A DNA stretch of 27,502 nt from a virus, in IMG/VR virus record IMGVR_UViG_3300031673_000383, positions 1 to 27,502 of that record; one strand, 5' to 3'. Under the pieces are notes generated by a model. That model did no database searches. It was not told the origin of the DNA and saw only the letters and a program-made list of their open reading frames with translations. Position numbers and translations under genes: made by a program. Shown here in pieces: positions 3,857 to 24,718 of this stretch. Positions within the stretch are counted from its first letter, which is position 1; each line of letters opens with the position of its first letter.

Positions 3857-5569
3857 TTACTGACCCAATAACCCATAAGTTGGGCTTAAACTTTGCTGTA
3901 ATTGCTGCTGTTCTGCTGACATTAAAGCACGACCTAATGTTGATCTAACTGGCTCAGGCACAAAACCACCAACCTTAGAAACACCACCGTAAACATTACC
4001 GATTAATCCTTGTGGCTTGGCTCCTAAATACCGTTGAGCCATCACATTGCGAACTGGGCCAGATGTACCTAGATAAGCAGGAATAGCCAATGGAGCTTGA
4101 AGCAACAATGAAAATGGATCGCTGTAAGCCTGTCTTTCAGCCGTACCACTAGAAGGAAATGCTCTAGGAAAACTACCACTAAGCATTGCAGCAGTTTCTA
4201 TCGGCTCTTTAGTTGTCCCATAAGTGGGACGCTTAGACAGTTCTTTAGAAAGTTTCGCAGCACTAACATTACCTGTATTAGCATCAAATGCTTTGTCAAT
4301 CAGGAACCAGTTAGACAAGTCTTTACGACCTTGGCGGAACTGATTTAATACTTGCTGACCATTAGTACGCATCAGATTGGCTGGGCTACTAAGATAACGC
4401 TCAATAGAATCTTCAAGAGAGTTACGTAGATTGGTTAAAGTCTCAATAGATGTACTAGAACCAGCCTTCTTAGCCTCAAATAACTTATCGCCAATAGCCT
4501 TAAGTGATCTAAATGCTTGATCTCCAGTCATGCCTTGAGAACCAAAAGACTCAAAATCTCTCAATATTCTTAAGGCTGCTTTATCAGTCGGAGTAACAAG
4601 AGAAGGCTTTAAAGATTTAATCTTTGCAATCTCAGCATTTACTGAACTTACAAAGTTGGCATCGCCAATGACAGATGGGTAGCTACTCAAAACTTTATAG
4701 TTGTTAAGGGCTTGGTTATATGCTGACCGCATATTCTCATTGGTTAACGGGGCGGCAGCAGGTATCTTAATTAAAGTTTTTGCAATCTCATTAGTCTTTG
4801 ATTGATTGCTTGCCTCAAAGCGTGTAAATGCCTCTCCAGCGATAGGAAAGCGAGATTTAAAGCCTTCTTTAAGACCGCCAAGCTGACCAGTAATCTGAGT
4901 TGGGTCAAGCTCAAATCCCTGCTCTATAGCTCTGCGACCAACTTGTTTTTGTTGTTCTGTTAAATTTGCCTCAAGTTTTGGAGCTAGGCCAACTTGACGC
5001 AAGCCAAATTGAGTTGCACCGCCAGTCACACCACCCAAACCAGCCTTAGAAATCATTTCACGCGTAGATTGACTTGGGGTTGTCAAAGAATATAATGCGC
5101 CACCAGCAGCCGCTTGAGGAATTGTTGTAGGAAGTAATGCGCCACCAATGGCTTCAGAAGTACCACCAATTACAGGAGCTTTACTAGCAGCCTTTAAACC
5201 AGCTCCACCAAACAAAGACCCAAGCATATCAACAATAGTTGACCCAGTAATTTCAGCGCCACCAGTAGGGGCTGTGGCTCTATAAGTTGGAGACATTACA
5301 GAACGAGATTGCTGAACGCCAGCCTCATATTGGCTTAATGTTTCAGGACTAACAACCCCAATAGCTTTACCAGCACGAAGGCCAGCGCCATACAAACCCT
5401 CACCAATTTGAGATACACGTTTACCAGCACCAGAAAACACGCCACCAGTTTCAGGTTCCCTTGATTTCTGTATCTTCTTTATCTCGGCAGCAAAAAGACG
5501 AGCAGACGTAATATCGCCAGCTTTATCAGCTTCCAATAACGCTCTCTCCAAATCTGGGATAGTTGCCAT
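3857..5569 (-). CDS. large internal virion / DNA ejection protein
   Basis: 570-residue protein. The N-terminus has a short helical repeat (DLERALLEADKAGD ... ARLFAAEI) common in phage internal proteins. Residues 40-190 contain several Gly/Ala-rich stretches that could insert into a membrane, and residues 200-420 are long charged helices. The C-terminus ends in YGLLGQ. No enzyme motif (for example a lytic transglycosylase Glu motif) was found. The composition and its place after two other ejection-like genes suggest it leaves the capsid with DNA to build the trans-envelope channel. This is inference from family resemblance and order. Confidence 0.7.
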   Translation of the reverse strand: MATIPDLERALLEADKAGDITSARLFAAEIKKIQKSREPETGGVFSGAGKRVSQIGEGLYGAGLRAGKAIGVVSPETLSQYEAGVQQSRSVMSPTYRATAPTGGAEITGSTIVDMLGSLFGGAGLKAASKAPVIGGTSEAIGGALLPTTIPQAAAGGALYSLTTPSQSTREMISKAGLGGVTGGATQFGLRQVGLAPKLEANLTEQQKQVGRRAIEQGFELDPTQITGQLGGLKEGFKSRFPIAGEAFTRFEASNQSKTNEIAKTLIKIPAAAPLTNENMRSAYNQALNNYKVLSSYPSVIGDANFVSSVNAEIAKIKSLKPSLVTPTDKAALRILRDFESFGSQGMTGDQAFRSLKAIGDKLFEAKKAGSSTSIETLTNLRNSLEDSIERYLSSPANLMRTNGQQVLNQFRQGRKDLSNWFLIDKAFDANTGNVSAAKLSKELSKRPTYGTTKEPIETAAMLSGSFPRAFPSSGTAERQAYSDPFSLLLQAPLAIPAYLGTSGPVRNVMAQRYLGAKPQGLIGNVYGGVSKVGGFVPEPVRSTLGRALMSAEQQQLQQSLSPTYGLLGQ

Positions 5570-7497: not shown

Positions 7498-8106
7498 TCA
7501 CCCTAAGAGGGAAATCCGTTGCGGCCTAAGAACCGTATCTTGCTGTGGATTGAGAAGGCTAGAGTAATCATTACTTTTAATCTCACCACTTCTAACTTGT
7601 CCAGCGGGAGCAAATTGCGGCTGTTCTTGCTGCATCATTTGCTGGGCAGACTGCATACCCATTTGAGTAAGAACTGGATTCTGCTGTGCGTATTGACCAA
7701 CACTAGCAAATCTGTCCATCATAGTAGGCTCATACAAAGACGATGGAATCATTCCCGTACTTGTGCCAGAGGATACAAATGGAGCAGTTGTAGGTGCGCC
7801 AGCAAACAAACCTCCACCAGCAGTTTTCATAGCCTCAACATTTAACGGGGTTGCCATTGGCGCACCAGTTGTAAATGCCTGAACAGCGTTAGTAGGAAGG
7901 GCAGCAGCATTAATTGTCGTTGACCCAGACAATGCGCTAGGCAAGACACCACTAGAACCAGCCCCAGCCAAGCCACCAGCGCCCATCAAAGCGCCACCAC
8001 CATAACCACCAGCCGCACCAAGCAACGCGCCTTTAAGTGGATCTTTCTTGTTCATCATAGCGCCGACAGAGCCGCCGACAACCGCCATAGTTACTGGATC
8101 AGCCAT
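7498..8106 (-). CDS. small Gly/Ala-rich ejection or internal virion protein
   Basis: 202-residue protein. Residues 4-60 are rich in Gly and Ala (KGALLGAAGGYGGGALMGAG), a glycine-zipper type sequence often found in proteins that insert into membranes. Residues 130-170 are rich in Met and Gln (QSAQQMMQQEQPQF). The C-terminus reads RISLLG, similar to the ends of two other virion-type proteins here. No enzymatic motif is seen. It overlaps the preceding gene by one base (TAATG) and sits between two other ejection-type genes, so an internal virion role is the best guess. Confidence 0.65.
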   Translation of the reverse strand: MADPVTMAVVGGSVGAMMNKKDPLKGALLGAAGGYGGGALMGAGGLAGAGSSGVLPSALSGSTTINAAALPTNAVQAFTTGAPMATPLNVEAMKTAGGGLFAGAPTTAPFVSSGTSTGMIPSSLYEPTMMDRFASVGQYAQQNPVLTQMGMQSAQQMMQQEQPQFAPAGQVRSGEIKSNDYSSLLNPQQDTVLRPQRISLLG

Positions 8107-10028: not shown

Positions 10029-11443
10029 CGGTTACCCTGTTTAACAACGTCAAACTCTAATCCCACGGCTGTCTGCCAGTTAGAACCAGTCGGAGTCAGT
10101 CTCAGTCGATGATAATCACCGCCAGACCGCAAGCTCACACGGTTTTCTGAGTCAGCAGGTACATCTGAGCCAAATTCCACTTGTTCAGACAGCAAATCAC
10201 GGCTGGCAACAGCAATAGAGCCGCTACCACCATCAACAATAGGTCTTGCTAAAGTTATAACAGACCTGCCTATATCAATATCACCCGTTGATATGTTGGC
10301 AGTCTTAGGCTGACCAGAGAAAGAGATAATCTTCTCGCCCCTGACACCAGCAAAGAGTAGTTGACCACCAGCAAACACCCGCGAATCCAGCGGAATCTCA
10401 AGCGCATCAATACTCGTATTGTAGTTATCCACCTGTTCTAGTGTTGCAGAAGGTGTTAACACATAAGAAATAGATGTAGCTGTGGTCTCAGCGTAAGACC
10501 ATTTGTTCAGGTCAATTGAATAGATAAGAATGTACTTATTGCCAAATGAACCATTGAACTTCCAGATCACCAACTTATCCACAGGGTCAACCGTAGCACT
10601 CATGCCGGTAGGAATCTCGCTAGGAATAGCGTTATCAAAGAACCAGCGGTTTACCTTTTCAGTGCCGATATTCTTAGTCGATTGACCATCGCAAACATAG
10701 AAGCCATCGTCTGCAAGAAAGTAGGTCAGGTTACCGTACTGAGTAATCGAGCCATTGGAAATACAGCCTAAAGACCGACTAATAGCGTCAAACTGAAAGA
10801 AGAACGGGGAGCCAGCATAGCTCATCCGGTAGATAGCACGTTCCAAGAAGATCAGACCGTACTCACCACCCGCAATCCCAGTAATGTCACCACCGTCAGG
10901 GAGAATCTGGCTATCAGCCTGAGAAGCAGCACCGGGAGTCCAGTCTGTCTCGTCATTTAAGTCTGACCAGTAAACCTTGCTTGTATCCGTCCCGTCATTA
11001 GCTGCCACAACAAAGTCACGGACAACCGTTACATACTTGGCAATAGGCGCATCAGCAGACAGGTCAGCAAAGACAGTAGATGAATTCAAAGTCCATGCTT
11101 GCAGCTTATCCTGACCATTAGCCAGAATCATCTGAGGGCCAAACTGGGTTATATCCCAACCCTCTACCGCTGAGTAACCCGTAGTCGTAGCTGCATCCAA
11201 ACTTGCATCAGTGCTGTCAAACTTGTAAATCTGTGTCGCACTAGCCGCAAACAGCGTACTAGCACCGCCAAACTTGCCAGCAAACGCAACCAGTAGAGCC
11301 GTACCAGCATCGTCCGAATAATCAGCCTCGCTCCTAAATGGCGCATAACCATTAGAAACCGGGTAACAGTTCTTAGCATCCGTTACCGCCCCAGTAACAC
11401 CAGGCTGATCTGGCAACCACTCCCCGAATATGATCTTTTGCAT
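10025..11443 (-). CDS. tail nozzle / DNA-stabilisation-like beta-propeller protein
   Basis: 472-residue beta-rich protein with recurring aromatic and Gly blades: LVAFAGKFGGASTLFAAS, ATQIYKF, KVYWSDLNDETDWTPG, GGEYGLIFLERAIYRM, TYFLADDGFYV, ILIYSIDLNKWSYAE. Blades of this kind are found in the tail nozzle of short-tailed phages and in P22 gp10-like packaged-DNA stabilisation proteins. It would sit under the portal, close the DNA channel and open on ejection. The length fits. Which of the two families is right cannot be decided by eye. It overlaps the 20-residue-repeat protein gene by one base (TAATG). Confidence 0.75.
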   Translation of the reverse strand: MQKIIFGEWLPDQPGVTGAVTDAKNCYPVSNGYAPFRSEADYSDDAGTALLVAFAGKFGGASTLFAASATQIYKFDSTDASLDAATTTGYSAVEGWDITQFGPQMILANGQDKLQAWTLNSSTVFADLSADAPIAKYVTVVRDFVVAANDGTDTSKVYWSDLNDETDWTPGAASQADSQILPDGGDITGIAGGEYGLIFLERAIYRMSYAGSPFFFQFDAISRSLGCISNGSITQYGNLTYFLADDGFYVCDGQSTKNIGTEKVNRWFFDNAIPSEIPTGMSATVDPVDKLVIWKFNGSFGNKYILIYSIDLNKWSYAETTATSISYVLTPSATLEQVDNYNTSIDALEIPLDSRVFAGGQLLFAGVRGEKIISFSGQPKTANISTGDIDIGRSVITLARPIVDGGSGSIAVASRDLLSEQVEFGSDVPADSENRVSLRSGGDYHRLRLTPTGSNWQTAVGLEFDVVKQGNR

Positions 11444-12093
11444 TACTGCCTCGTCCAGTTATCTTGCGTAGAAGATGTTTTAATCCAGTAATCGTAACGA
11501 TCATCTGTATAACCATCATCCCAATAATCAATCTCTACATACGGGTCAAACAAGCTATTACTGAACCAAGTATTAGGGCCAGCAACCACCGGAGTCCAGA
11601 CATTTGCAACTTCTGCAACCTGCGTCCAAGTGTCCGTACTAGGTACAGTATCTGCCCACTCATCCCCGATAATATTGCCTCTAGCTACAAAGGCCACAGA
11701 ACCGTTTATAGCGGCGTTTCCAGCCCATATCGCATTAGGTGAGGCAGACACACTAGCCACGCCATTAATCGCCCCAGAAACGCTGTAAACCACGCCACCA
11801 AGGGCTGTAACCGTAGCTGTTCCTGTAATGCCAGCAACGCCGGTTCTAACCCTAATACCGTCTGCCGTTACTATTGCTGAAGAACTAACACTAGCATCAC
11901 CAAATTGAATTCTAGTTCCCTGAGCAGATACCGCAGCATTTCCAGTAACGCTTCCGCTGCTTGTTCTTATTCTTATCCCGTCTGACGTTACTGTTGCCTG
12001 AGCAGTTACAGATGCACTGCCAAATTCAAGGATTGCATCGCCTTCAGCGTAGCCGTATTCCCAATAGTCATAGACTACGTATTGAAGGCTCAT
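11443..12093 (-). CDS. tail-associated protein with six 20-residue beta repeats
   Basis: 216-residue protein with striking internal order. Residues 26-145 are six units of exactly 20 residues on the pattern x-x-S-V-T-G-x-A-x-V-x-A-x-G-I-R-I-R-x-G. Residues 146-176 then have Trp exactly every 10 residues (146, 156, 166, 176). Both ends carry an aromatic block with a YW-x2-GY core (10-15 and 190-195). The repeat should form a stack of short beta strands (solenoid or fibre). No known domain is recognised. It starts directly at the stop of the DUF7936-like gene and lies among tail genes, so I infer a tail or fibre component. Confidence 0.75.
   Translation of the reverse strand: MSLQYVVYDYWEYGYAEGDAILEFGSASVTAQATVTSDGIRIRTSSGSVTGNAAVSAQGTRIQFGDASVSSSAIVTADGIRVRTGVAGITGTATVTALGGVVYSVSGAINGVASVSASPNAIWAGNAAINGSVAFVARGNIIGDEWADTVPSTDTWTQVAEVANVWTPVVAGPNTWFSNSLFDPYVEIDYWDDGYTDDRYDYWIKTSSTQDNWTRQ
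11659..12018 (-). repeat. six tandem 60-bp units coding 20-residue repeats
   Basis: Six back-to-back 60-base units inside the preceding gene, residues 26-45, 46-65, 66-85, 86-105, 106-125 and 126-145. Conservation is strongest in units 1-3 (VTSDGIRIRT and VTADGIRVRT) and decays towards unit 6. Units 1 and 3 also share similar DNA around 11990 and 11870. No unit has gained or lost a residue. Confidence 0.85.
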
Positions 12094-14158: not shown

Positions 14159-14545
14159 TTACGACAGCGTTACAGACAAGGAACCAATAGCAATCTTAAA
14201 GATGTCACCCGTATCAATCGTCTTGGACGTATCCAGAGCAGTGTGATACATCAGATTACCAGCAGTTGAAGCATCCAGAATACCGATAAACGCTACCGTT
14301 CCCCATGAAGCCGTACACTGTGGGAACTCAACCGCAGCATCATTCAGGGAAGCACCATCACTAGGCGCACCAAATGTCACCGCAGTACGGGCATAAGAGC
14401 CACCAGAGACCTCAGTGCCGGTATTGGCATCAGTAGGGTCAGTTAGATACAGACCGACATAAACCGTTGCAGGGCTTGTGTAGCTCGTATTACGCAAGGT
14501 AGCGTTAATCAGAGCATTTTCCAGATAATTCGACATTTCTGCCAT
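14159..14545 (-). CDS. Gp80-like tail/fibre-associated protein
   Basis: 128-residue protein. NYLENALINATLRNTSYTSP (6-25) followed by ATVYVGLYLTDPTD and GTEVSGGSYARTAVTFGAP is a widespread phage pattern, annotated in other genomes as a Gp80-like or tail-fibre-associated protein. It should be a compact beta structure. The exact role is unknown. It lies three bases after the adaptor gene and ten before the S74 fibre, which supports a function at the junction of tail and fibre. Confidence 0.75.
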   Translation of the reverse strand: MAEMSNYLENALINATLRNTSYTSPATVYVGLYLTDPTDANTGTEVSGGSYARTAVTFGAPSDGASLNDAAVEFPQCTASWGTVAFIGILDASTAGNLMYHTALDTSKTIDTGDIFKIAIGSLSVTLS

Positions 14546-14548
14546 GAT

Positions 14549-15169
14549 TTACCTCACGTTATAAGACATTGCCATTGGCTGACCGCTGTATTCACTAGAC
14601 TGGTCAGCATTAGATATAGAAGCGATAGAACGGTCATAGAGCGCGGCCCAGACCTGCAACCTAGCATCGTTCATCAGGTACGGTTCAGCCTCTCCTAAAG
14701 CACCGTACAGCAGCGCATCAGGGCAGTTAGCCAAGAACACATTGCTTGAATTGGTATCACTCAAGAGAGGAGGCTTTGCGTAGTACAGCATCTGAGCCTG
14801 ATAAGCCGCATCAGGGATAGGCGCAAACTGAATCTCTGAAGCCAGGACAGTGTAAGTACGTGGGATACCTGACTCAGTAGCCCGTGTGCTTTGATAGAAA
14901 GTATTAGGGGATTCATACGATACCGAGCTAATCGGATTCGTATTAAAGTGGATGTCCCGCATCTCAAGGAAGTCGGCAGGTAGTCCCACCGTGGAATCCC
15001 CACCCGTAGTTGAAGCCGTAGCCACCACCAGCATCTGACGGATTCTCAGGTCTCTACGCAACCGTTCCTCAGACAGCCGGATAAAGTCAGGGATTACTGA
15101 GTCAAGGTCACTACGAGCTAGGTAGCTGGCTATCGTAGTCTTTAGTTCACTATAGCTCGTCAATGCCAT
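14549..15169 (-). CDS. head-tail adaptor protein (SU10-like)
   Basis: 206-residue protein, mainly helical with SYSELKTTIASYLARSD (5-21) at the N-terminus, then IPDFIRLSEERLRRDLRIRQM (25-45), a beta piece with VGLPADFLEMRDIHF (61-75), and CPDALLYGALGEAEPYLMND (about 149-168). This helical bundle with the inserted LPADF segment is the typical phage adaptor (gp6/SU10-type) that joins the portal to the tail. It is in the expected place, downstream of portal and capsid. It starts two bases after the glycosyltransferase stop. Confidence 0.85.
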   Translation of the reverse strand: MALTSYSELKTTIASYLARSDLDSVIPDFIRLSEERLRRDLRIRQMLVVATASTTGGDSTVGLPADFLEMRDIHFNTNPISSVSYESPNTFYQSTRATESGIPRTYTVLASEIQFAPIPDAAYQAQMLYYAKPPLLSDTNSSNVFLANCPDALLYGALGEAEPYLMNDARLQVWAALYDRSIASISNADQSSEYSGQPMAMSYNVR

Positions 15170-15171
15170 GA

Positions 15172-15852
15172 CTATTTCCCGTTGTTATGCGCCTCAATAG
15201 CGCCTTCTTCTACATCTTCCCACCGATACTCATACGTACCAATGTGACCGATATGTTTGGAAAGGCTGTGGTCTACATGAGTCTGGAACCCGGCATCTAA
15301 GGCTTTGATGCAGAAATGCACATCCTCGCCAATAATGCCCTTTGATCCCCAACCCACATCAAACCAAGGCTTAGGCACTTTCTCAAACACTTCCTTGCGA
15401 ATCATCACCACACCAAAACCAACCGCTGTGACAGGCTCTATTCCTTCCTTGCCCATCGAATCAACCTTGTGCCAAGCGTGACGGATAATCTTGCCCTCGT
15501 CATCCTTCTCAATCTCAAGGTTTAAAGCAGTCGGTAGCGTAGGCTTACGTCTCGTTACCGCATTGACCCCAACAATCGGAACCTCACGACTTAACAAAAT
15601 GTCAATCGTGTCACTAGGAAACCGCATATCTGAGTCAATAAACAGAACCGCATCACATCCCTCTTTGAGAGCAGCATCTACTAGCTTCTCCCTCTGATCG
15701 AATATCAGCGTCCCTGCCATCGTGTACAGCTTTAGGCCGTTACCATCTTGAGAACACCTATGCTTAGAATCTCTGCCGACCATCTTGGCAAAGTCAAATG
15801 CAAAAGAGGTGTGAACCTCGTCCCTTGCTGGTACGCATACGCCTACAATCAT
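15172..15852 (-). CDS. glycosyltransferase, family 2-like (GT-A fold)
   Basis: 226-residue GT-A enzyme. Visible parts are IVGVCVPARDEV (2-13) as the first strand, FIDSDMRFP (71-79) with the metal-binding DSD at 73-75, VPIVGVNAVTRR (91-102), GFGVVMIRKEVFEKV (145-159), GEDVHFCIKALDAGF (175-189) with the GED acid, and HIGHIG (200-205). It should transfer a sugar from a nucleotide sugar; donor and acceptor are unknown. It is fitted between two particle genes, with one base of overlap to the upstream gene and two bases before the adaptor. It may modify a virion protein, but modification of the host envelope or DNA cannot be excluded. Confidence 0.85.
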   Translation of the reverse strand: MIVGVCVPARDEVHTSFAFDFAKMVGRDSKHRCSQDGNGLKLYTMAGTLIFDQREKLVDAALKEGCDAVLFIDSDMRFPSDTIDILLSREVPIVGVNAVTRRKPTLPTALNLEIEKDDEGKIIRHAWHKVDSMGKEGIEPVTAVGFGVVMIRKEVFEKVPKPWFDVGWGSKGIIGEDVHFCIKALDAGFQTHVDHSLSKHIGHIGTYEYRWEDVEEGAIEAHNNGK

Positions 15853-16207: not shown

Positions 16208-17152
16208 TTACAGCGACATATTCAGGTCAGCAACGATACCGTGGGCGGCTTCGTTCTTAACCTCAAGGGTGCATTCGACCAAGATTTGAGTCTTGTCAGC
16301 ATCGCCAGCCTTAGCCAGTTCGTTAGTCTGGAACGGACGCAGGTAAGCGATAGCTGCGTACTCAGGATCAAGGATCAGAGCATCGCGGGTACGCATGAAT
16401 CTATTAGGTACGACCGCCAGGTTTCCGAAGTCGCTCACATAAAAATCTGCCGCGCCAATTATTGTAGAAGGAGCATTGCCGGTCACGTTGAAACGGGTTT
16501 CAGCGATACCAGTGAAAGAGCTAACCTTCTGCTTGCCAGTTGCGCCAACCATCAGCACCTTAGGCGAACCACCGGAAACAAACACCTCAGCCACGACTTC
16601 TTTCAGCAGGGCTTCAGTAAAGGTACGGGTGTTACCGTCAGTACGAGTAGACACGCCGATAGTCGTTGGGTCACCACCGTTGGTCTGAGCCGACGAGTTG
16701 GTCTTGATCCACGACAGCAGAGAAGCCATCTTACGAGCAGTAGAGCCATCACCAGCAGAACGACCCTGGTTCGACAGCAGAACAGTCTCCAGATCGCGCT
16801 TGATCTCTTGCGAAGCCTTAGCCAGCTGATATGCCTTCTCAGACTTACGACCAGCCTTGTTCACTGTGTCCAGAGTGCCGGAGACCTTGATAGTCTTCTG
16901 CATGATCTGTGTATAGTTGCCAAGACGAACAGTCGGAGACAGGGTAGCGTCCGAAGCGTCAGCACCTTCAACAGCAGCGTTAGCAGTAGTAGCGGCTGCC
17001 AGCGTGTCAGTCTGCCACTCGTGGAAAACAGCCGTAGCTTTAGTCTTGCCAATCGAGGACATGAAAGGAGTCTCGGTAGGCGAAATGTCATAGATGACAT
17101 CAGTCAAATCTTCGCGCTGACCAACTGCGCTGTGTGCGGTATAAGTTGCCAT
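16208..17152 (-). CDS. major capsid protein, SU10-like
   Basis: 314-residue shell protein of HK97 fold. The start, with AVGQREDLTDVIYDISPTET (9-28) then PFMSS and HEWQTDTLAA (45-54), is the signature of the SU10-type major head protein family. Conserved downstream parts are YTQIMQKTIKVSGT (101-114), AGRKSEKAYQLAKASQEIKRDLE and a PNRFMR piece near residue 240. It is preceded by the scaffold gene (11-base gap) and has AGGA nine bases upstream. A strong intrinsic terminator follows, which should make its transcript the most abundant. Family assignment is sound by eye. Confidence 0.92.
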   Translation of the reverse strand: MATYTAHSAVGQREDLTDVIYDISPTETPFMSSIGKTKATAVFHEWQTDTLAAATTANAAVEGADASDATLSPTVRLGNYTQIMQKTIKVSGTLDTVNKAGRKSEKAYQLAKASQEIKRDLETVLLSNQGRSAGDGSTARKMASLLSWIKTNSSAQTNGGDPTTIGVSTRTDGNTRTFTEALLKEVVAEVFVSGGSPKVLMVGATGKQKVSSFTGIAETRFNVTGNAPSTIIGAADFYVSDFGNLAVVPNRFMRTRDALILDPEYAAIAYLRPFQTNELAKAGDADKTQILVECTLEVKNEAAHGIVADLNMSL

Positions 17153-20537: not shown

Positions 20538-21812
20538 TTATACAACCCATTTGGTATTGATAGGCAAGTCTGATGACCATGAATCGTCGCTCTCGTCAAG
20601 CCCAATAGCAAGGTATCTGAAAGCGTCTGAGTAATGGCTAGACCAGTCGTGCAGTGGCTTATCGTAGAACACCTGCTGCTTCTCGTTGTATTCCCTACGG
20701 TAGTTGCGTATAGCGTCAAGTCCTGGCTTAGTCTTGTGGTCAAACCAGCATCTAGGCAAGATACGCCTGACAGCCTGTATGCCATCAGCAATAGACAACC
20801 TCGGAGCCACGGTAATCTCTAGCCCAGCCTCTTGCAGTACTTCCTTACGGCTGCGGCCTGTGCCTAGTTCTCTTACTTCAACGTCGTGCGGGAGGATCTG
20901 CCCGAAGCCTTCGTACTTGTTGTCTCGCAGCCATGATACATACCAGTCCAGACCGACCCCGTGGTTTTCGACGCAGTCAATAAGCCTAATCTCTTTACCA
21001 GCCAACTGAGCCACCCATAGGCAAGTAGAATCGCCCATGCCCAAATCCCAAGCAACAAAAGACCGGCAAAGGTCATCCCGGTCAATAGTCGTGATCCTAG
21101 ACTTGGCTTCGAGATCGTTAATAATCTGCCCATAATAACTACCCTCAACCGCTGCGTTAAAGGAACACTCAAACTCCTGCTGGTACTTGTCCTCGCCCAT
21201 CTCCTTGCGAGCACCCCAAAGTTCTTTGTCGCTGAGGATACCTGTCTGGCTGGCCTTGAACTCAAGGAGCTTCCATCCCTCCGCTGTCTGCGCCCTATCC
21301 CTAAAGTCAGCAAAGTGGTTCTTACCTTTAGGCGTACCAATGAACAGACACCACGTAGGAGCCTCGTCTGAGTTCCTATCTGCTAACGCTGGCCTGATGA
21401 CCTCGTTCCAGATTTTTGGGTTTTGGTCTCCAATCTCGTCCAGCACCACTCCGTCAAAGTACTGGCCCCTGAGCGAATCGGCATTGTCAGAACCGTAAAG
21501 ACTAATTCTACGCCCCCAAAAGTCCACGCGAAGCTCAGAAATATTAGCCGTAGCACCCAGTGGACGAGTAAATTCAAGCAGGTAATCCCAAGCCACACGC
21601 TTAGACTGAGCATAAGTAGGAGCAATATAGGCAAATCTCGGATTAGGTTTCTTGCACTCAATGGCAGCCTTTATTAGATGATTGATGGCGCTTACAGTCT
21701 TCCCCATACGACGATGGGCAACTACTACCGTAAACCTGTGGTTATCTACTGCCTCATGGATAGCTAACTGCTGATCCCTTGGCTTGTAAGCTATCTCGAT
21801 TACTTCTGCCAT
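20538..21812 (-). CDS. terL: terminase large subunit
   Basis: 424-residue DNA-packaging ATPase and nuclease. Walker A-like AHRRMGKT at 32-39, Walker B VVLDE at 122-126 and motif III FIGTP at 157-161 make up the ATPase. The RNase H-like nuclease follows with AWDLGMGDST (Asp 256), LPHD (Asp 310) and HDWSSHYSDAFRY (Asp 389, Asp 396). All key acids are present, so it should be active. The ATG overlaps the small-subunit gene by 13 bases. Whether packaging is headful or cos-type cannot be read from this window. Confidence 0.95.
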   Translation of the reverse strand: MAEVIEIAYKPRDQQLAIHEAVDNHRFTVVVAHRRMGKTVSAINHLIKAAIECKKPNPRFAYIAPTYAQSKRVAWDYLLEFTRPLGATANISELRVDFWGRRISLYGSDNADSLRGQYFDGVVLDEIGDQNPKIWNEVIRPALADRNSDEAPTWCLFIGTPKGKNHFADFRDRAQTAEGWKLLEFKASQTGILSDKELWGARKEMGEDKYQQEFECSFNAAVEGSYYGQIINDLEAKSRITTIDRDDLCRSFVAWDLGMGDSTCLWVAQLAGKEIRLIDCVENHGVGLDWYVSWLRDNKYEGFGQILPHDVEVRELGTGRSRKEVLQEAGLEITVAPRLSIADGIQAVRRILPRCWFDHKTKPGLDAIRNYRREYNEKQQVFYDKPLHDWSSHYSDAFRYLAIGLDESDDSWSSDLPINTKWVV

Positions 21813-22099
21813 GTGACCACATGCTCTTGCGGCCCACCATCTGCGCCAGTAACCTCAGTTCTTGCCAACTTAGGTATATGGTACTCAGAGAGCTTCTGGA
21901 TAATGTCCAATGCCTTATGAGGATCCTTGTCAGCCACCTCATTAAGCCATCTATCCATGTTAGGAGCATTGCGCTCTAGTAGGTTAGCAATGGCCTCTCT
22001 TACGATGCCTGTAGCCTTATTAGGCATACCCTTAGGTCTACCCGGCCCTGCTAGTCCTTTGCCGATTTCTGGCGTTTTAAAATCGCTATTTGTTTCCAT
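21800..22099 (-). CDS. terS: terminase small subunit-like (DUF5681-type)
   Basis: 99-residue protein. GLAGPGRPKGMPNKATGIVR (15-34) is a basic loop known from small-terminase-like DUF5681 proteins; then REAIANLLERNAPNMDRWLN, DPHKALDIIQKLSEYHIPKL (58-77) and ARTEVTGADGG. It is shorter than usual small terminases and lacks an evident full helix-turn-helix, so the DNA-recognition role is inferred from its 13-base overlap with the large-subunit gene and its motifs. AAAGGA lies 10 bases upstream. Confidence 0.75.
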   Translation of the reverse strand: METNSDFKTPEIGKGLAGPGRPKGMPNKATGIVREAIANLLERNAPNMDRWLNEVADKDPHKALDIIQKLSEYHIPKLARTEVTGADGGPQEHVVTWQK

Positions 22100-22126: not shown

Positions 22127-22711
22127 TTACCGACCAAGTAGCCCCGGTATTTGAATCTGTACCTGTCTACCCTTACCTTCTGGCATCATTGCCTCACCGT
22201 ACATTCTTGCTAATGCATAAAGACTAGGAGCATTAGGAATATAGTCTCCTGTAGACATTTTTTGCTGAACCTTGTTCTTTAAAGGATTAAAGTCGTATGT
22301 GTCTTTAATGGAAACATTTCCTGTCTTTGGATCTACTGCGTAATTAAACTGGCCTAGTGTAGTCCTAATGTTTTCGTAAGGATTCGCTGCCCCTGCTCCT
22401 ACTCCAGCAGCCATAGAGTTTTGCGAAGGAGGAACAAAGTTCAAGTAGTCCTTGTATTGGATATATCCTGTCGGTGCATTAGGGTTAGCTAACTGCTTTG
22501 CCTTAATTAACTCGCCAATAGTATTTAGTTCTGCTTGCGTGAAATTCTTTTCCGTAATCGGCATCTGGTTTTTGTCTGCAAATGTTTCCAAATACAAACG
22601 TTTATTTGATGGCATCTGGCTACGATCAGCAACAGCACCATAAGCCTGAACACCACCGCCAACGATGGTATTTGCTATTGCCTTAAAGAAATCATCTATT
22701 GGGTTAGCCAT
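22127..22711 (-). CDS. virion-type protein upstream of the terminase genes
   Basis: 194-residue protein. The N-terminus has a small Gly-rich hydrophobic stretch (AIANTIVGGGVQAYGAVADR, 11-30). NPYENIRTTLGQFNYAVDP (110-128) and VSIKDTYDFNP (133-143) form a segment I know from virion proteins of environmental phages. The C-terminus ends in PGLLGR, like the ends of two ejection proteins in this window. No catalytic residues are evident. It overlaps the glycosyltransferase start region by 8 bases. I think it is a minor particle protein, although it lies outside the tail block. Confidence 0.6.
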   Translation of the reverse strand: MANPIDDFFKAIANTIVGGGVQAYGAVADRSQMPSNKRLYLETFADKNQMPITEKNFTQAELNTIGELIKAKQLANPNAPTGYIQYKDYLNFVPPSQNSMAAGVGAGAANPYENIRTTLGQFNYAVDPKTGNVSIKDTYDFNPLKNKVQQKMSTGDYIPNAPSLYALARMYGEAMMPEGKGRQVQIQIPGLLGR

Positions 22712-23411
22712 AAAATACCTCGTACATATCCGGCCTGTTAGCCTTTATCCACTCTCGTGGTTCCTCATGGCATTTCTTGAAGTCTGTGCCTACTGTCTGG
22801 CTTCCTGCGTGATGCACATAAGCCCTGCTGACGAAATGCCTGTAACCCGCTTCTAGCAGGTCATGACATATTATATTATCGGAATACCAATTAGTGCTAG
22901 GAAACTTAGCCGTGTCCCATGCCTTCCTGCTTATGCTGGCAAAGATAGGTGCGATTACTCCCGTCTCCTTGATCTGTGCCTCACTAGCCCATCTTAGTCC
23001 CTCTTGTTTATCATCGTAAACAGGGAACCTAATGTTCTGGTCTGGCAACACGTAGTCCGATCTTGCACCCAAGAATCCGACATTTATGCCCGTTGATTCC
23101 AGAATCTCCGCATCTGCCGCCAGTAGCCTCATGGTATCTGGGTTCAGCACCACATCGTCATTACTAAGGATTACTGACTCGTACTTGCCATGCTCAAAAG
23201 CGTAGTTTGTAGCTACATTGTAGGCATCGCCGAAATTCGTAGCCTGATTCGGCCTCCAGACCAAATTCGGCAGGATTGACTTAGCCCTGTGCCAAAGCTC
23301 CAGGCTATTCCCAAATAGGTATACGGGCATCGAGGGCGCATATACTTTGATTGACTCCAGCAATACCGTAATGCCGGGGTTCTTGACCGTACAGATGACT
23401 ATTGCTTGCAC
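22704..23411 (-). CDS. glycosyltransferase, GT-A fold
   Basis: 235-residue enzyme. AIVICTVKNPGI (3-14) is the first strand, VILSNDDVVLNPDTM (80-94) carries the metal-binding NDD motif at 84-86, and IFASISRKAWDTAKF and CHDLLEAGYRHFVS follow as the acceptor and acid regions; YVHHAGSQT is near the end. This fits GT2-like enzymes using a nucleotide sugar. It starts with GTG (GAGGG upstream) and overlaps the methyltransferase end by 13 bases, so expression is coupled. Donor and acceptor are unknown. It could act on host surface sugars or on phage components. Confidence 0.8.
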   Translation of the reverse strand: MQAIVICTVKNPGITVLLESIKVYAPSMPVYLFGNSLELWHRAKSILPNLVWRPNQATNFGDAYNVATNYAFEHGKYESVILSNDDVVLNPDTMRLLAADAEILESTGINVGFLGARSDYVLPDQNIRFPVYDDKQEGLRWASEAQIKETGVIAPIFASISRKAWDTAKFPSTNWYSDNIICHDLLEAGYRHFVSRAYVHHAGSQTVGTDFKKCHEEPREWIKANRPDMYEVFYG

Positions 23412-23929
23412 AATGTTACCCTCATGGAATCTACTGCCCTCGGTGTTCTCAGAATTTCCTGATCGGGAAGTCCGGCCTCAGACATCTCTGTGCCTAACTC
23501 TGTCAATTTAAACTGAATCTCTGTCAGCTTAAAACCCTTGTCCCAGCCCAAATACCAGCACCAATCAGTGTAATACAGCCAACTGTTCTCATTAAAAGCA
23601 CGAACATGAGTCGGATCTTGCCATGCGCCAAGGCTTAATTCATACGGAACAGAAATAGTAAATTTCCCGTTCGGGATTAGCAGGTCTCGGCAGTTCCTCA
23701 TTGCGCTAATTAAGTCCGGTATATGCTCTAAAACGTCATTTGCGACGATTTCTTCAAACATATCAGGCTTAATCTTAATCTGTCCGAACCGGGTCTCTAT
23801 TACCTCACCCCATTGAACCTTTGAAATGTCACACACCCAGTCAGGATTTACCCTAGCCTGAATGTCTGAGTTTAGACAGTCTTCTCTCCAGTCCTTGCCG
23901 GAGCCTAAATTAAGGATTAAGGGCTGCAA
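23399..23929 (-). CDS. SAM-dependent methyltransferase (type 11-like)
   Basis: 176-residue Rossmann methyltransferase. LILNLGSGKDWRED (4-17) is the SAM-binding motif I, IVANDVLEHIPDLI (60-73) the motif-III/IV region, and LLIPNGKFTISVPY (83-96) motif V/VI with the usual Gly turn. It starts with TTG, with GAGG seven bases upstream and an in-frame stop just before, so there is no other start. It overlaps the acetyltransferase gene by 20 bases and the glycosyltransferase by 13. Small-molecule or sugar methylation fits these neighbours better than DNA methylation, as no DPPY/NPPY motif is present. Confidence 0.85.
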   Translation of the reverse strand: MQPLILNLGSGKDWREDCLNSDIQARVNPDWVCDISKVQWGEVIETRFGQIKIKPDMFEEIVANDVLEHIPDLISAMRNCRDLLIPNGKFTISVPYELSLGAWQDPTHVRAFNENSWLYYTDWCWYLGWDKGFKLTEIQFKLTELGTEMSEAGLPDQEILRTPRAVDSMRVTLCKQ

Positions 23930-24419
23930 TTAGATCCTCTACGTTATCAGAACACAATAATGGGATTAGTTCTTTGATTCGGCTATCAGGTAGATTCCAC
24001 CACGGATTTTGCAGTAGCCTCTGTATCTGGTCTTCAGTAAACCGTAGCTTTAATACCTTGGCAGGATTACCGCCAACAATAGCATAGGGAGGCACATCCT
24101 TAACCACCACGGACTTAGCCGATATGACAGCGCCATCACCGATATTAACACCGGACAATATGGTAGCGCCTGATCCTATCCAGACATCGTTGCCAATGAC
24201 AACATCACCCTTAGTCGCTGGATGCCCTTTGCCATGCCAAGGGAATTTGTCCTGATGAATATGCCCAAACGGATAAGTCGTTACCCAATCGGTTCTGTGA
24301 TTGCCACCAAGGAATATCTCAACATTGTCAGCAATAGAGCAAAAAGCGCCGATTAATACATCAGCGCCTTCACCCCATTCCCTAACTCGAATGTTTTCAA
24401 TCCCATAGGAATATCGCAT
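23910..24419 (-). CDS. hexapeptide-repeat acetyltransferase (XAT/CatB-like)
   Basis: 169-residue left-handed beta-helix protein. Hexapeptide repeats run through VLIGAFCSIADNVEIFLGG (21-39) and VVIGNDVWIGSGATILSGV (93-111) to AYAIVGGNPAKVLK-like PPYAIVGGNPAKVLKLRF. GGNHRTDWVTTYPF (38-51) holds His 41, the expected catalytic residue. A WW pair and helices near residue 140 close the fold. These enzymes acetylate hydroxyl groups of sugars or antibiotics. Here the neighbours suggest a sugar substrate. It is somewhat shorter than CatB. The start is coupled to the upstream gene by TAATG. Confidence 0.87.
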   Translation of the reverse strand: MRYSYGIENIRVREWGEGADVLIGAFCSIADNVEIFLGGNHRTDWVTTYPFGHIHQDKFPWHGKGHPATKGDVVIGNDVWIGSGATILSGVNIGDGAVISAKSVVVKDVPPYAIVGGNPAKVLKLRFTEDQIQRLLQNPWWNLPDSRIKELIPLLCSDNVEDLIAALNP

Positions 24420-24718
24420 TACTTTTTCTTGTTCCGAGCAGAGATAGAAGCAGCTTTCTTCTTGGCATCGGCCTTACTGCTGGCTCCCCATGCTCGTAAA
24501 GACAGTAACAAACGAGTAGGCTCACCATTTGGTTTCTTCTCCGGGCCGGGCATATTCCCCATTCTTGCCAAAAAGCTCGCTCGACGGGGGTTGTCACCTG
24601 CTTTGACTGGGGCCTTCAGGTTAGAACCAGGGTTCTCAGCCTCATAAGACTTACGGCCTTTCTCGTTCAGACCGCCCTTAGCGTTCTTACCGGCCTTCTT
24701 AGTCCAAGCGGCTGTCAT
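24419..24718 (-). CDS. small basic protein, DUF6321-like
   Basis: 99-residue protein, very rich in Lys, Arg, Ala and Gly. AWTKKAGKNAKGGLNEKGRK (4-23), SYEAENPGSNLKAPVKAGDN and RRASFLARMGNMPGPEKKPN form a set I associate with DUF6321 proteins found in phages and some giant viruses. SISARNKKK ends the chain. It has no transmembrane or enzymatic motif; the charge suggests nucleic-acid binding. It overlaps the upstream gene by ATGA and the acetyltransferase by one base. The family call is by eye and should be treated as probable. Confidence 0.7.
   Translation of the reverse strand: MTAAWTKKAGKNAKGGLNEKGRKSYEAENPGSNLKAPVKAGDNPRRASFLARMGNMPGPEKKPNGEPTRLLLSLRAWGASSKADAKKKAASISARNKKK

Follow-up and report, generated by a model that had tools for sequence, protein, structure and literature searches.

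A candidate glycosylation module with exchangeable tailoring enzymes in the packaging block of an uncultured phage group

Introduction

Why would a tailed phage carry, next to the genes that package its DNA, three overlapping genes for enzymes of the kind that build and decorate glycans, and what would those enzymes modify? The locus that raises this question lies in a 27.5-kb IMG/VR virus record, the whole of which is referred to here as the window. The window has the podovirus-type portal, TerL and head genes of a tailed phage, nearly all of its genes are on the minus strand, and its host is only suggested to be a member of the Methylophilales or another betaproteobacterium, from the TerL of Methylophilales phage Venkman (65%). 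An earlier sequence-only reading proposed that an acetyltransferase (ACT), a methyltransferase (MT) and a glycosyltransferase (GT) act together on one glycan carried by host lipopolysaccharide, the virion or modified DNA bases. Only a small number of phages in culture are known to glycosylate their virions, and the three-enzyme set is compact, with a substrate that is directly testable.

Results

The three ORFs lie on the minus strand, and the TTG and GTG starts and the overlaps of 20 and 13 bases described earlier are confirmed in the sequence (Table 1). GAGG-type Shine-Dalgarno sequences stand 6-7 bases 5' of the TTG of MT (GAGG-ATCTAA-TTG) and of the GTG of GT (GAGGG-TAACATT-GTG). The coupled chain is longer than the trio and runs from the DUF6321 gene through orf194, as TAATG is common to the DUF6321 stop and the ACT start and GT overlaps orf194. 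The block had been described as lying between particle-type genes and terminase; more exactly, DUF6321 is on one side of it and orf194 on the other, and beyond orf194 come a terS-like gene and TerL. PHROG 15261, which the terS-like gene matches, has no assigned function, and the profile match together with the position before TerL suggests the small-terminase role. DUF6321 (PF19846) itself is a conserved basic protein of 99 aa, and the same domain ends much longer PHROG phage proteins.

Table 1. Features of the window that define or accompany the module
Feature	Position	Strand	Length and start	Remarks
Acetyltransferase (ACT)	23910..24419	-	169 aa, ATG	first of three cassette ORFs
Methyltransferase (MT)	23399..23929	-	176 aa, TTG	second of three
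Glycosyltransferase (GT)	22704..23411	-	235 aa, GTG	third of three
Overlap of ACT 3' end and MT 5' end	23910..23929	-	20 bases	Shine-Dalgarno present
Overlap of MT 3' end and GT 5' end	23399..23411	-	13 bases	Shine-Dalgarno present
DUF6321 gene	24419..24718	-		left border of module; PF19846 3.2e-24; gene order in relatives
orf194	22127..22711	-		variable slot after GT; gene order; terminal GLL motif
Small-terminase-like (terS-like) gene	21800..22099	-		right border; PHROG 15261 1.1e-6; adjoins TerL, directly before it
Second GT-A-like glycosyltransferase	15172..15852	-		PHROG 1574 6.7e-23

ACT is a hexapeptide acetyltransferase of the xenobiotic, CatB/Vat type, with both the left-handed beta-helix fold (Pfam Hexapep PF00132, 2.3e-11, above the cut-off; PHROG 16087, 6e-54) and the histidine loop of that family. 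CatB and Vat structures were the best solved relatives when its profile was compared with the PDB (E 2e-45), and its NHRTDW motif and C-terminal WW segment align with theirs (CatB 3eev). H41 is invariant across relatives, and the histidine of the N-H-R-(S/T)-D-W loop is what we take to be the catalytic residue of the CatB/Vat-type family. These likenesses would fit an antibiotic-resistance enzyme carried by the phage, yet such a role is hardly credible: ACT is shorter than CatB and Vat at its N-terminus, is coupled to a methyltransferase that it always adjoins in the phage group, and has a homologue fused to a homologue of MT in a bacterium. ACT would instead be an accessory tailoring enzyme for O- or N-acetylation, presumably of a sugar.

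A PDB sequence search found no relative of either GT or MT, and structure comparison was therefore used for both. The AlphaFold2 model of GT (pLDDT 91) clearly predicts a GT-A fold, matching POMGnT1 with Z 18.4 (185 residues superposed at 2.6 A) and many other GT-A enzymes with Z of about 16-18; against Pfam it reaches E=0.076 only, short of the score for glycosyltransferase family 2 (PF13641, 13.5 bits against a cut-off of 27), to which it is related at the level of the fold only. The DXD-like NDD (N84-D85-D86), a predicted metal/nucleotide-sugar motif, is invariant in 38 sequences, and NWYSDN and YVHHxGSQTxG are further conserved motifs. GT matches no PHROG, none of 50,697 phage records and no prokaryote genome of the GTDB collection, and at the sensitivity used it looks virus-specific. 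MT is a class I SAM-dependent methyltransferase (Methyltransf_23, PF13489, 4.4e-7, 30.2 bits against a cut-off of 27) whose LNxGxGKD, a nearly invariant, glycine-rich SAM motif, and ANDVLEH are conserved in relatives. Its structure model is of moderate quality (pLDDT 74.5) and matches methyltransferase folds with Z of about 8-10, neighbours that name no substrate.

Phage GT-A enzymes are known, TET-associated ones included, and such enzymes are among the structural neighbours of GT, which would suit a cassette that glycosylates and decorates modified bases of phage DNA. Evidence from the relatives makes this acceptor, one of those first proposed, very improbable. No thymidylate-synthase-type base-making enzyme (hydroxymethylase) was found in 20 relatives, with controls detected in 9/14, the 47 other proteins examined in two near-complete relatives include no base-modification family, and GT lacks a Pfam match to a TET-associated glycosyltransferase family. 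A TET/JBP dioxygenase search gave 0/17, with no control detected.

Hundreds of IMG/VR contigs carry GT together with MT. A first comparison covered 118 distinct loci that had been fetched with the cassette genes themselves and was thus biased, and a bait-independent set was obtained by fetching relatives with TerL alone, giving 75 distinct TerL loci, 34 of which have an upstream anchor gene on the contig. GT is at the site in 34/34 of these anchored loci, MT stands directly before GT in 26/34, and ACT is found in 5/34, always directly before MT (5/5). The slot before GT reads MT-GT in 20 loci and ACT-MT-GT in 5, a GT2-type enzyme accompanies MT and GT in 1 and GT alone in 2, an unrelated methyltransferase (family c8, Methyltransf_11/PHROG 32762) precedes GT in 2, and GT has no recognised partner in 4. 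In two of these four (L240, L248) the slot is filled by a different glycosyltransferase-like ORF; in L017 GT stands alone directly after DUF6321. The GT2-type enzyme (family c16) is a Glycos_transf_2 protein and, like c8, an alternative in the tailoring slot. Because an unrelated methyltransferase or another glycosyltransferase can fill the same slot, what appears to be conserved is the role of the partner rather than the particular enzyme.

Relatives, including those without ACT, retain the starts and overlaps, and the overlap between ACT and MT is similar in the relatives that have ACT. Where ACT is missing, MT overlaps DUF6321 directly, and where no gene intervenes, GT abuts DUF6321. The N-terminus of MT without ACT differs by few codons, those within the ACT overlap, and the presence or absence of ACT is a clean gene gain or loss preserving the coupling. 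As the starts and overlaps are kept and GT is at the site in all anchored loci, the arrangement is not due to chance. Taken as a fixed three-gene system, the locus does not stand up, given how often ACT or MT is missing from the unbiased loci; it is one module made of a constant GT as its core, MT as the usual tailoring enzyme, an optional ACT and exchangeable tailoring enzymes, and the trio is its fullest common form. The scattered, partial occurrence at random sites that was expected of an accidental cluster is seen in part, as many relatives have only one or two of the genes; site and order are the same except in two distant outliers, L167, where GT is separated from ACT-MT, and L270, where GT-MT lies directly before the portal gene.

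The rarity of ACT and the few relatives with GT alone count against a single glycosylation module, and they would fit an accessory locus in which the genes are neighbours of convenience, GT (with MT) serving one function and ACT an independent acetylation, all the more since genes of other roles adjoin the module. We regard this as quite unlikely. ACT is not found without an adjoining MT in the phage group, in either the 118-locus or the TerL-selected comparison, the two genes retain their overlap, and in one bacterial genome the enzymes are fused. That fusion, in a Sulfuricurvum MAG (L271), is a single ORF with an ACT homologue (43%) followed by an MT homologue (57%), in the phage order, and adjoins a GT41/GT-B fusion; it lies at a contig edge and was found once, and no more ACT-MT fusions were found in 796 genomes of the class of that MAG and of the family of another MT-bearing genome. 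The fusion suggests that ACT and MT share one substrate. Virus records with ACT only yielded no MT in a profile search that had no positive control. The earlier view that three glycan-type enzymes form one coupled block holds, the block being physically conserved, and a single pathway for the three enzymes is very likely.

Cellular relatives of MT give an indication of what that substrate might be. The GTDB genome collection contains 36 strong relatives, with identities of 45-60%; one of them, L270, is in fact a fragment of a phage. In 29/36 loci the MT homologue and a GT-B-like domain are encoded in one ORF (Glyco_trans_1_2 in L284), and GT41-type enzymes occur in the 8-kb flanks of 11/36. 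Flagellin, FliD or FliS lies within 8 kb in 5/36, two of which (L284, L285) are related, and Flagellin_N was confirmed by Pfam in L264. In genomes that are millions of bases long, flagellin genes are found at only one or two positions, and the figure of five is by this reasoning far above chance. We infer from the fusion partners and neighbours of these relatives that the substrate of MT is a sugar, and the chromosomal surroundings, with their glycosyltransferase fusions, GT41 enzymes and flagellins, point to the tailoring of protein glycans. That bacterial MT might be the tail end of a Mu-like head protein was also considered and was rejected, since the domains fused to it are glycosyltransferase domains.

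The second glycosyltransferase of the window is encoded two genes beyond the one for the major capsid protein, has a Pfam group-2 glycosyltransferase match below the cut-off, and accompanies the module in 7/7 near-complete relatives checked. The two nearest annotated genomes, those of Venkman and of phage ctXG6705, share the TerL, portal and tail-tube genes with the window phage and have neither the module nor the second glycosyltransferase. Distant relatives of the latter (PHROG 1574) occur in cyanophages, at 27-32%.

Discussion

In our proposal, the block represents the tailoring end of a glycosylation module of the phage. Translational coupling would lead to its expression with the late virion and packaging genes, and the soluble, virus-specific GT-A enzyme would take a sugar from a nucleotide-sugar of the host and attach it to an acceptor produced while particles are assembled, one or more virion proteins being the likeliest. 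The sugar would then be methylated by MT and acetylated by ACT, as in bacterial flagellin glycans, and with the tailoring slot swapped, the exposed glycan would vary from phage to phage, the benefit probably being altered recognition, stability or adsorption of the particle. The identity of the sugar, the order of the reactions, the virion acceptor and the benefit all belong to the proposal, to which, taken as a whole with a virion protein as the likeliest acceptor, we give a probability of roughly 0.45.

Protein glycans are favoured because of the surroundings of the cellular MT relatives. Among proteins, three observations favour those of the virion: the coupling of the genes into the packaging and head block, the second glycosyltransferase, encoded shortly after the capsid protein and accompanying the module, and the lack of both in Venkman and ctXG6705, whose TerL, portal and tail-tube genes are shared with the window phage. 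Given a single pathway, a virion protein is a reasonably probable acceptor. Gene position is weak evidence in this respect, as the neighbouring slot holds polyvalent genes (ART, nuclease-like) and accessory roles also collect there. A Ser/Thr/Ala/Gly-rich repetitive protein of the virion block (11443-12093) would be a plausible glycan acceptor; other virion-protein genes of the window include those for the capsid protein (16208-17152) and for tail-tube proteins (14549-15169 and 14159-14545).

The main rival is that the cassette acts late on a glycan of the host surface, such as that of flagellin, LPS or capsule, and so spares the progeny from being lost on debris and infected cells. The flagellin evidence could equally fit a phage that modifies the flagellin of its host or some other glycan on the host surface, as homologues of MT sit in loci of the flagellin glycosylation type, and the variability of the slot resembles a match to variable host glycans. 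We nevertheless consider it unlikely. Expression with the virion block would leave little time for surface remodelling, and none of the three enzymes appears to be membrane-bound, with no membrane-like segments and a highest 19-residue hydropathy of 1.5. Neither the GtrA flippase (controls detected in 7/14) nor a tyrosine integrase (controls detected) was found in 17 records; a CI-like repressor domain is present in one relative. The absence of GtrA, of an integrase and of membrane-like segments also makes lysogenic conversion of LPS of the Gtr type unlikely. No flagellin-type gene was seen in the window itself or among the cassette genes of its relatives.

The glycosylation module proposed here has parts in common with several known systems, and the earlier suggestion of a previously undescribed system goes too far, as virion glycosylation and the methyl and acetyl tailoring of flagellin glycans are both known. 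Flagellin glycosylation islands of Enterobacteriaceae are reported to contain GT41 enzymes with methyltransferase domains and O-acetyltransferases, with swapping of these functions between strains (PMC4875605). The phage module resembles them in combining a glycosyltransferase, a SAM methyltransferase and a presumed sugar O-acetyltransferase with swapping of the tailoring enzymes, and cellular relatives of its MT sit in such surroundings. It differs from them in having a short, virus-only GT-A enzyme rather than GT41/GT-B, in lacking sugar-biosynthesis genes and flagellin, and in being packed into the packaging block. In mycobacteriophages Che8 and Rita, capsid and tail-tube glycans are made by phage enzymes (Freeman et al. 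2023, cited in PMC11256854, PMC10877033, PMC12619734), and these systems likewise depend on phage-encoded glycosyltransferases. Those are other phages and hosts; methyl and acetyl tailoring or slot swapping is not mentioned in these accounts, as far as the excerpts of them extend. Gtr-type seroconversion (O-antigen glucosylation) also uses phage-encoded glycosyltransferase genes, with a GtrA flippase, a membrane-bound glycosyltransferase and an integrase that the phage module lacks. An unaimed literature search on the three-gene set returned nothing specific. Phage-encoded glycosylation and flagellin-type tailoring are known already, and here they would be combined in a packaging-block module.

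A GT family absent from the genomes and phage records searched is the core gene of a large uncultured environmental phage group. If the acceptor is on the virion, variety in the glycans of the particle would be under selection even away from animal hosts. It is a tentative and somewhat doubtful extension that the phage group diversifies its particle surface with a methylated and acetylated sugar, by means of a virus-specific GT and interchangeable tailoring enzymes of the flagellin type; if true, the module would be a phage counterpart of flagellin glycosylation islands.

Additional observations

The slot after GT is hypervariable and holds an ART-PolyVal ADP-ribosyltransferase, a PBECR5 nuclease-like protein, orf194, or a ParB/DNA-methylase fusion that is accompanied by another terS-like gene (examples are L132:5678-6541, L072:3281-4669 and L058:8704-10488). 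Otherwise unrelated proteins encoded after GT have a GLL motif (often GLLG), either at the extreme C-terminus or close to the N-terminus. It is C-terminal in 8/9 members of the orf194 family, 5/5 of c13, 4/4 of c15 and 2/2 of c22, and at either end in 28/40 of c3, and it also occurs in a virion-block protein of 530-620 aa. In the window the motif is found in the genes at 22127-22711, 3857-5569 and 7498-8106, and in relatives in the gene after GT (e.g. L189:8929-10713, L197:5079-7160); over all proteins of seven relatives there is no enrichment. The motif might serve as a tag in packaging or ejection. Finally, in a close relative of the window phage (G002) one of the early genes (L186:224-1072) is phosphoadenosine phosphosulfate reductase-like.
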